NCBI RefSeq assembly: GCF_008641065.1
Contig: NZ_VTRS01000001.1
Span: 248,001 to 312,000, forward strand
DNA: 64,000 nucleotides
Direction of reading: 5' to 3'
DNA from: Rhabdaerophilum calidifontis
Lineage (GTDB): Bacteria > Pseudomonadota > Alphaproteobacteria > Rhizobiales > Beijerinckiaceae
This document shows, piece by piece, positions 60,272-64,000 of this stretch. The notes beneath the pieces were generated by a model. The model was not told the origin of the DNA. It made no database searches and worked only from the letters and a program-made list of their open reading frames with translations. How positions within the stretch are numbered: the first letter of the stretch is position 1; every line of letters starts with the position of its first letter. The position numbers were made by a program, and so were the translations under genes.

Positions 60272-61096
60272 TTGGCGGCGGCAGAGAGTGCACGATGGGT
60301 GCGGGCCGGGCGCGTTCCCGGCAGCGCAGTGGCGGGGCTCGCGGCGCTGCTGTTCGGCGTTGCGCCGGCCCTCGGCCAGAATGTCGAGGCGCAATATACG
60401 ATCACGCTGGCCGGGCTGACGATCGGCAAGGCGGCGATCAGCGGTCAATTGTCCGGCTCGTCCTACACGCTCAATGTCAGCTCCGCGCTGACGGGGCTCG
60501 TCGGTGCGGTCTCGCGCGGGCAGGGGTCGGCGGCTGCGCGCGGTCAGATCGGCGGGGGCACGGTGCTGACCAACGGGTTTTCGTTCTCCGCCAGCAACGG
60601 CACCGATCAGCGCTCGGTGCAGATCGTGGCGAGCGGTGGCTCCGTCCGCAGCGTGGTGATCGAGCCACCTTTCGACCAGAAGGATGACCGCGTGCCGGTG
60701 CGGCCCGCGCACAGGAACGGTGTGCTTGATCCGGTCAGCGCGCTGGTCATGCCGTCGAAGGCCGTCGATCCGCTCGACAAGGCCAATTGCGAGCGGCGCC
60801 TGCCGGTCTTCGACGGCAGCCAGCGCTTCGATATTGTTCTGTCCTATGCCGGAACGCAGCAGGTCGAGAGCGAGGGCGGCTATTCCGGTCCGGTTCTTGT
60901 CTGCGCGGCGCGCTACGTGCCCGTGGCCGGGCACAGGCCGAACCGCCGCGTGACGAAGTTCATGATCGAGAACCGCGACATGCAGGCCTGGCTCGCGCCG
61001 GTGAAGAGCGGCCGCCTGCTGCTGCCCTATCGGATCTCGGTGCGGACGATGATCGGCACCACGATCATCGAGGCAACGCGGTTCAATCCCGGCTGA
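60272..61096 (+). CDS. Exported DUF3108 domain protein
   Basis: 274 residues from a TTG start preceded by AGGGGAG; later in-frame GTG codons (60299, 60329) are alternatives. Signal peptide with a hydrophobic core AVAGLAALLFGVAPALGQ (about 19-36). The rest matches the DUF3108 pattern: AQYTITLAGLTIGKAAISG, DRVPVRPAHRNGVLDPVSAL, and KFMIENRDMQAWLAPVKSG. Proposed periplasmic; function unknown. The rpmB / DUF3108 / helicase neighbourhood is conserved in Hyphomicrobiales. A hairpin GTCCCG-GAA-CGGGAC (61108-61122) follows the stop. Confidence 0.82.
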   Translation: MAAAESARWVRAGRVPGSAVAGLAALLFGVAPALGQNVEAQYTITLAGLTIGKAAISGQLSGSSYTLNVSSALTGLVGAVSRGQGSAAARGQIGGGTVLTNGFSFSASNGTDQRSVQIVASGGSVRSVVIEPPFDQKDDRVPVRPAHRNGVLDPVSALVMPSKAVDPLDKANCERRLPVFDGSQRFDIVLSYAGTQQVESEGGYSGPVLVCAARYVPVAGHRPNRRVTKFMIENRDMQAWLAPVKSGRLLLPYRISVRTMIGTTIIEATRFNPG

Positions 61097-61752
61097 GGCG
61101 ATTGCCTGTCCCGGAACGGGACCGGGCGGTTAACGGGCGTCGCGCTTTTTCTAGAAATTCCGTCGCCGGCTCCGCATGCGCGTTCTGCGCGCAGAATGCG
61201 GGTTTCGGCGCGTTGCAGCCCGGTTTCGGCGCCAGAGGACCGGATTGGTGCGCGAGGCGAATCAGCGACGCCCGATTCGTGCCGGTTCCGTTCCAAGAAT
61301 GGGCCAAATCTTAACGCGGGCGCCTGTCCGCAGGGGGAGACGGGCTATCGAAGTATTAACCATGATTCCCGGAAGAATCGTCTTGACGGCGATCTCCGCT
61401 CGACTCGGCACGGGAGTCGAGCGGGCAGGGCGATTCGCAATGCTGAGTCGAGAGATTCAACAACATGTCGCGGAGCGACGGTTATGCTTCGCCATATCTT
61501 GTGCGTGAACAAAGCAAGACTCGACCCGAGTCAGCGATTCGGGCCGGATTCGTTCGCAGGCTGTTCGGAAGCTTTCAGCATCTGGCGATTCGCTCGGCCC
61601 GTCTGTGCCGGATTGGCACCAATTCCGGGGAATCGAGGCGCTGCGGCGGGAATCCGGTTGCCGATCGCCGGCCGGGTGCCCAGATAGCATTCATGCGCGG
61701 GTGCAGGCTGATGAAGCCGATTCGCACCCGGTCTGATGCAGCCGGAGCGCCC
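61097..61752. promoter_or_regulatory. Intergenic region with dense GANTC sites and inverted repeats
   Basis: 656 bases with no convincing gene. From 61259 to 61723 I count 17 GANTC sites (starts 61259, 61274, 61364, 61375, 61402, 61414, 61432, 61445, 61454, 61518, 61528, 61536, 61547, 61587, 61630, 61650, 61719), versus about one or two expected for this base composition, and none from 61741 to 63000. Several are inverted pairs: GATTC-CCGGAA-GAATC (61364-61379), CGACTC-7-GAGTCG (61401-61419), GACTCG-ACC-CGAGTC (61518-61532). There is also a 14-base palindrome TTCTGCGCGCAGAA (61183-61196), a direct repeat GGTTTCGGCGC (61201 and 61222) and a CtrA-type half-site TTAACCAT (61356-61363). GANTC is the CcrM methylation target, so methylation-dependent control of the helicase or another cell-cycle role is possible. 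Confidence 0.7.

Positions 61753-64000
<2,248 letters not shown>

Follow-up and report, generated by a model that had tools for sequence, protein, structure and literature searches.

A dense GANTC array and a conserved core with a LexA-type box upstream of a Suv3-like helicase gene in Rhabdaerophilum calidifontis

Why does a single intergenic gap of an alphaproteobacterial chromosome hold 17 GANTC (CcrM-type) sites, and what could read them in front of a helicase gene? The locus lies in the window analyzed here, a 64-kb stretch of Rhabdaerophilum calidifontis DNA (G000:C11:248001-312000; positions are those of the window unless a contig is named). The array occupies positions 61259 to 61723, with no strand assigned, inside a putative regulatory intergenic region on the plus strand (61097 to 61752; taken from 61094 in the scripts, stop codon included). 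This region separates the gene for a DUF3108 protein (60272 to 61096, plus strand; Pfam PF11306) from that for a Suv3-like helicase (plus strand; Pfam PF22527 and PF00271), the start of which lies at 61753 to 63999 and which continues beyond the window end. Excerpts of PMC3973325 report that GANTC is over-represented between genes and that genes with conserved promoter GANTC sites are over-represented among those strongly misregulated in a ccrM mutant.

RESULTS

Density of the array. The 17 sites start at 61259, 61274, 61364, 61375, 61402, 61414, 61432, 61445, 61454, 61518, 61528, 61536, 61547, 61587, 61630, 61650, and 61719. The sequence-only reading of this DNA had counted 17 sites in 465 bases and none between 61741 and 63000; both counts were reproduced, and the GANTC-free stretch was found to extend from 61724 to 64000, the window end. 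Its chance expectation of 1.4 sites was of the right order of magnitude but about twice the contig average, which is 0.74 per 465 bp (1.60 GANTC/kb over 780 kb). A density scan covering 780 kb (contig C11) of the 3.09-Mb genome placed the array at the top with 17 sites per 465 bp, followed by stretches with 7, 6, and 6, and the ranking that had been proposed earlier thus revealed no second such region within the 780 kb scanned. A Poisson calculation on the contig mean gave 9e-18 per position, which is a rough guide only since it ignores composition. The gap has a G+C content of 0.63, compared with 0.68 for the contig, and dinucleotide shuffles of its 659 bp (n = 1000) produced a mean of 4.2 and a maximum of 11 GANTC sites versus the 17 observed. 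Across the whole window there were 109 sites versus a shuffle mean of 361, indicating that GANTC is otherwise avoided in the window. Dispersed copies were sought by BLAST in the same genome (E ≤ 10) and rejected: of the 42 matches, one was the self-match and the next best had an E value of 0.117. Strict helical phasing of the whole array was also rejected, wide recurrence being limited to the offsets around the core described below.

Conservation within the genus. The helicase locus was recovered from 16 of 17 genomes of the genus, including that of the window; G016, where a helicase match was absent, was left out of the genus set. The locus was thus available from 15 of the 16 same-genus relatives, with 8 to 15 GANTC sites in the same gap, and the loss in close relatives that the sequence-only reading had considered was not seen in any of these 15. 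Together the 16 gaps, with 8 to 17 sites each, contain 201 GANTC sites in 10.7 kb (18.8 per kb), and the first 2.2 kb of the helicase genes of the genus contain 1.3 per kb. GANTC was the most frequent of the 16 palindromic pentamers of the form XYNY'X' in these gaps, and its 201 occurrences versus 3 to 61 for each of its twelve one-letter neighbors indicate that the enrichment belongs to GANTC itself. Tested singly by shuffling, the gaps gave z scores from 2.8 and 2.9 (L003 and L005) up to 7.0 (the window). In the genus alignment the 201 sites were accommodated in 43 columns. Five window sites (61274, 61414, 61518, 61536, and 61547) share their column in 15 or 16 of the 16 members, four of these columns being filled in all 16 genomes and one in 15, and six window sites were matched in at most 2 of the 16. 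The alignment suggests that a high number of GANTC sites is kept while many of their positions drift.

Two further genus-conserved blocks on the plus strand were seen in this alignment. The upstream one (61259 to 61294), containing GAATC and GATTCG...GTTCC, may be a degenerate and incomplete repeat of the core, although its profile score of 11.7 bits (E value of 0.087) hardly differs from that of a chance match elsewhere on the contig (11.4 bits). The other, AAGTATTAACCATGATT at 61351 to 61367, contains TTAACCAT, which we take to be a putative CtrA half-site.

The array beyond the genus. The comparison was widened to 80 named loci, chosen as the best of 561 confirmed stretches; nine of these 80 come from the window's genus and are shared with the genus set. 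Among these best 80, the 465-bp GANTC maximum lies before the helicase in 62 and is tied in 6, and some other part of the locus has more sites in the remaining 12; at least 8 sites precede the helicase in 52 of the 80, and such a number was reached elsewhere in the locus in none. The array is present in Bradyrhizobium, Rhodopseudomonas, and several Beijerinckiaceae and absent from Xanthobacter, Azorhizobium, Lichenibacterium, and some others. The closest named helicases are 78 to 84% identical, with MAGs labelled Beijerinckiaceae, Methylobacterium, Hyphomicrobiales, or only Proteobacteria. The earlier suggestion that the same cluster be looked for upstream of the helicase in related genomes was rewarded, the cluster being dense in the genus and sparser across much of the order.

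A conserved core with a LexA-type box. Judged by alignment, the most conserved part of the array region is a core of fixed spacing that includes a LexA-type box. In the window the core lies at 61501 to 61575 on the plus strand, reads GAACAAA...GACTC-N5-GAGTC-agcGATTCGG...GATTCGTTC-N7-GTTC, and matches the core profile with 59.7 bits (E value of 8.6E-17), the sole strong profile match in 780 kb. It is about 80 bp long and is made up of the GAACAAA element at its left end (61507 to 61513, plus strand, defined by core alignment and profile), the cGATTCGG site, and TTCGTTC-N7-GTTC. GATTCGG (61536 to 61542, plus strand) is the most conserved GANTC of the array in the core alignment, the profile, and the genus columns, and with its preceding C it fits the YGAKTCG/YGAKTCK motif form described in PMC7987155. 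The LexA-type box, GTTC-N7-GTTC, occupies 61552 to 61566 on the same strand. In an anchored alignment of the loci the order was GAACAAA, GACTC-N5-GAGTC (in part of the loci), GTCagcGATTCGG, nTTCGTTC, N7, and GTTC, with the spacing fixed.

The exact motif GATTC-N11-GTTC-N7-GTTC precedes the helicase in 114 of 152 distinct loci (obtained from 158 by merging identical upstream 300-bp sequences) and did not occur elsewhere in 1,647,805 bases searched on both strands. All 114 GTTC-N7-GTTC boxes are accompanied by the GATTC 16 bp upstream, although that count of boxes did not demand it. The profile added six loci at E < 1e-3 (L154 to L158 and L180), all from outside the order; in L154 to L158 one GTTC half is changed and GATTCG is retained. 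Neither an exact core nor a profile match (E < 1e-3) was present in 32 of the 152 loci, with L019, L082, and L145 counted as coreless at weak profile matches (E values of 0.015, 2.5, and 0.94). L141, with an upstream region of only 29% G+C, still has GATTCGG and both GTTC halves. Around the core, GANTC recurs at offsets -18 (47 of 109 loci), -8 (59), +11 (65), and +22 (41); the profile seeds and these 109 loci were chosen for having GATTC and the box, so that offset 0 is filled by construction. In many relatives only a few GANTC sites accompany the core. In L144 two copies of the core, about 200 bp apart, precede a single helicase gene.

Linkage of the core to the helicase gene. The distance from the box to the downstream helicase start ranges from 47 to 438 bp (median, 200 bp), and no exact core was reversed relative to the helicase. 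Among the 119 core loci with over 1,150 bp of upstream DNA, 28 lacked a detectable DUF3108 gene there, and conversely DUF3108 persists in 8 of the 31 loci in which a core was not detected, indicating that the core goes with the helicase; some loci offer 1.2 to 1.5 kb of upstream DNA, and five smaller stretches in the DUF3108 search hold 1.2 kb only, so that DUF3108 was possibly missed in a few. Downstream of the helicase in the window's genome are, in a row, genes for an S4-domain protein, a ferredoxin (Fer4/DUF3470), CarD, and a sigma-70-family factor.

Candidate readers. The genome of the window has a GcrA match (G000:C14; E value of 7.9E-53, by a family profile that also matched one archaeal control genome) and one LexA match. 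Absence of ccrM, which the sequence-only reading had named as an argument against its proposal, was not observed: there is a RAMA-domain match (G000:C16; E value of 2.1E-17), taken as CcrM by this domain alone, which is presumably the C-terminal part of CcrM. In a second set of genomes GcrA was matched in 20 of 20 and RAMA in 19 of 20, so that their presence cannot separate core from coreless loci. GcrA was also matched in all nine genomes tested from the 32-locus coreless group, and its presence therefore does not imply the core.

The YGAKTCG form accounts for 8 of the 17 array sites versus 268 of 1,232 in the 780 kb outside the array (Fisher test, P = 0.019), and the YGAKTCK form for 10 of 17 versus 345 of 1,232. 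According to PMC7987155, YGAKTCK is the hypothesized activating form, with almost no such preference in Brevundimonas. A GcrA-loading or methylation-sensing role, as proposed at the outset, fits the sequence. In PMC5172544, proteins are described that keep CcrM off promoter GANTC sites.

For LexA, a gene match was found in 8 of 8 genomes and then in 17 of 20 further genomes, which are draft assemblies, and the same GTTC-N7-GTTC type of box occurs at lexA and recA in eight genomes. The LexA DNA-binding-domain match is absent from three draft genomes of the order (G038, G042, and G044). G038 and G042 (92% and 94% complete) keep the box and G044 is boxless; the box in the former two either weakens the proposed LexA step or indicates that lexA was missed there.

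Position on the chromosome. The sequence-only reading had noted that GANTC is enriched at some replication origins. On contig C11 the GC skew is slightly negative from 20 to 120 kb and positive in every 20-kb step onward through 800 kb; it turns at about 100 to 120 kb, close to hemE (124 kb) and to a pair of exact parS sites (128.4 and 130.4 kb). There is no skew sign change at the array (C11, 309 kb). With the skew turn, hemE, and parS some 180 to 190 kb away, the origin idea did not hold, and the array was excluded as oriC. No DnaA box of the scanned form was found in the 800 bp before the helicase of L001. A DnaA-box-like TTATCCACA stands just upstream of the core in the distant loci L155 and L157, and its complement does so in L145.

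The second and third densest GANTC stretches, with 7 and 6 sites per 465 bp at G000:C11:127710 and 129399 (L112), are outside the window; they neighbor hemE and both parS sites, in what is probably the origin region. In 8 of 11 genomes the helicase and hemE are separated by no more than 10% of the genome length (51 to 419 kb), and the distance is larger in G029, G036, and G048, with hemE validated as an origin marker in G000 only and contig ends left unwrapped in the distances. This closeness fits replication-timed methylation, although plain synteny may account for it.

RNA, promoter, and coding checks. No Rfam match up to an E value of 1 was obtained for 61000 to 62000, and the consensus fold of 54 cores was fully unpaired at 0.0 kcal/mol (computed without a shuffle control). 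No sigma-70-like promoter was found in 61050 to 61780, a result that says little for an alphaproteobacterium as the consensus is of the E. coli type. Five terminator-like sites were found versus 0.8 expected. One terminator-like hairpin on the minus strand (61518 to 61532) combines GACTC-N5-GAGTC with a T-rich tail that is the complement of GAACAAA. The GACTC/GAGTC hairpin was rejected as a general terminator, given that the -18 GANTC is kept in only 47 of 109 loci. Two reading frames cross the gap, an open reading frame at 61196 to 61687 and the frame of the helicase, which continues upstream to an ATG at 61465. Neither 61196 to 61687 nor 61465 to 61760 gave a Pfam match, and together with the many indels in the genus alignment this makes it unlikely that the array region is protein coding. 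The helicase frame is open up to that ATG over part of the array, and the indels in the genus speak against a true extension.

DISCUSSION

On balance, we lean, with only slightly better than even confidence, toward the region being a CcrM/GcrA-read promoter-operator with a LexA-type box that would serve the helicase-CarD cluster and that is decorated with the array in the genus. The genes under its control would be those for the helicase, the S4-domain protein, the ferredoxin, CarD, and the sigma-70-family factor, and the region is probably a switch tying this group to chromosome copying and DNA damage. Its most constant element would be one cGATTCG at a fixed 11 bp before the LexA-type GTTC-N7-GTTC, and in the window's genus this single site would have been expanded into an array of 8 to 17 GANTC. 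The replication fork would cross this origin-proximal locus early, and its sites would stay hemimethylated until late in the cycle, when CcrM acts. The reader of CcrM methylation would most likely be GcrA with sigma-70 polymerase; on methylated YGATTCG sites, GcrA would set transcription according to cell cycle stage, and many GANTC sites may give a stronger or steeper response. LexA, if it binds the box, would repress the promoter until DNA damage occurs. In this proposal we infer methylation of the sites, binding of GcrA and LexA, the position of the promoter, and timed expression from sequence features. Against the proposal count the missing match to an E. coli-type promoter in 61050 to 61780, the named loci in which the array is not the densest stretch, and the genomes of the coreless group that nonetheless have GcrA.

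Could the locus instead be mainly an SOS operator, with LexA binding GTTC-N7-GTTC and perhaps a GAAC half-site, and with GANTC conserved through its overlap with LexA half-sites while methylation goes unread? The box recurs in 114 of the 152 distinct loci, boxes of the same type stand at the lexA and recA promoters of eight genomes, and the excerpts of PMC7987155 point to an easy overlap between GANTC and the LexA motif of alphaproteobacteria, GTTC-N7-GTTC, which can explain GANTC conservation at SOS genes. However, the window gap has a single such box and most of its 17 GANTC sites lie outside it, GANTC far exceeds its one-letter neighbors, G038 and G042 have the box and no LexA match, and L154 to L158 alter one GTTC half while GATTCG stays. 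We therefore regard this explanation as unlikely, though worth keeping in mind. We are more doubtful still of a single-copy, origin-proximal methylation counter of the Hyphomicrobiales, in which the hemimethylated array and the GATTCG/LexA-type core would gate the helicase-carD cluster (or replication) and would measure the time since fork passage and the integrity of the DNA. Rather improbable, too, is a dedicated cis-acting chromosome site that is not a promoter, whether an origin-proximal hemimethylation sensor or a titration site for GcrA, CcrM, or another protein. Such a site would have a possible functional parallel in datA or a SeqA cluster, and it would suit the one strong copy in 780 kb, the extreme site density, the nearness to hemE (at most 10% of genome length in 8 of 11 genomes), and a site number that is retained although the positions mostly change (201 sites spread over 43 columns). 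The core, however, keeps its orientation and stays at most 438 bp from one gene despite a differing upstream neighbor, which would be needless for a free-standing site, and in many relatives the core is accompanied by few additional sites.

The remaining explanations carry much less weight. A structured noncoding RNA gene or leader that contains GANTC incidentally could draw on the large conserved gap, on the ability of GACTC/GAGTC to make short hairpins, and on the predicted minus-strand terminator-like hairpin at 61518 to 61532, but it is very improbable in view of the missing Rfam match in 61000 to 62000 (up to an E value of 1), the unpaired consensus fold of the 54 cores (0.0 kcal/mol, again without a shuffle control), and a hairpin that is not general, with the -18 GANTC in only 47 of 109 loci. 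In E. coli, oriC has dense methylation sites. By that likeness, and with an AT-richer gap (GC 0.63 versus 0.68) and the DnaA-box-like TTATCCACA beside the core in L155 and L157 (its complement in L145), a second or main replication origin might be entertained, but the skew is positive across the locus, its turn, hemE, and parS are about 180 to 190 kb distant, and the 800 bp before the helicase of L001 hold no DnaA box of the scanned form, so that we give this idea almost no credence.

In the literature searched, which had subscription journals and supplements outside its scope, no statement of a GANTC cluster before a Suv3-like helicase was found, and the word "helicase" had 0 occurrences in the main texts that were searched for it. 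GcrA/CcrM targets are, according to the excerpted PMC7987155, rewired between species. If regulation by the promoter-operator proposed here is confirmed, a core shared by much of the order before one gene, with a dense array in one genus, would be a rare conserved target outside the Caulobacterales, and the locus would join cell cycle methylation, SOS control, and the helicase-CarD cluster. It would also make the role of multiple promoter GANTC sites directly testable. If that reading is true, the methylation counter would unite replication timing and SOS in a single checkpoint element, for which the literature searched showed no counterpart.

Among known systems, the E. coli oriC, datA, and SeqA-bound GATC clusters are methylation sites clustered near the origin. 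The array resembles them in the local clustering of methylation sites near the origin and differs in having a different methylase, in lying off the origin, and in being tied to one gene. Like the MucR-shielded hypomethylated promoters in the excerpts of PMC5172544, where methylation of promoter GANTC can be blocked by another protein, the locus has GANTC in a putative promoter region. With alphaproteobacterial LexA (SOS) operators it shares the exact GTTC-N7-GTTC half-sites, their spacing, and a position upstream of a gene; unlike those operators, it combines the box with a constant GATTC 11 bp upstream and, at a fixed distance, a GAACAAA arm, and its box is kept in two draft genomes without a LexA match. 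With the CcrM/GcrA promoters of Caulobacter and Brevundimonas, as excerpted from PMC7987155, PMC3973325, and PMC3667746, it has in common promoter-region GANTC, YGAKTCG-form sites, and conservation in relatives. The genome of the window likewise has CcrM-type and gcrA genes. Unlike those promoters, the locus carries 17 sites in 465 bp and a fixed-spacing core that is tied to a LexA-type box and conserved across much of the order, and its regulation is predicted here.
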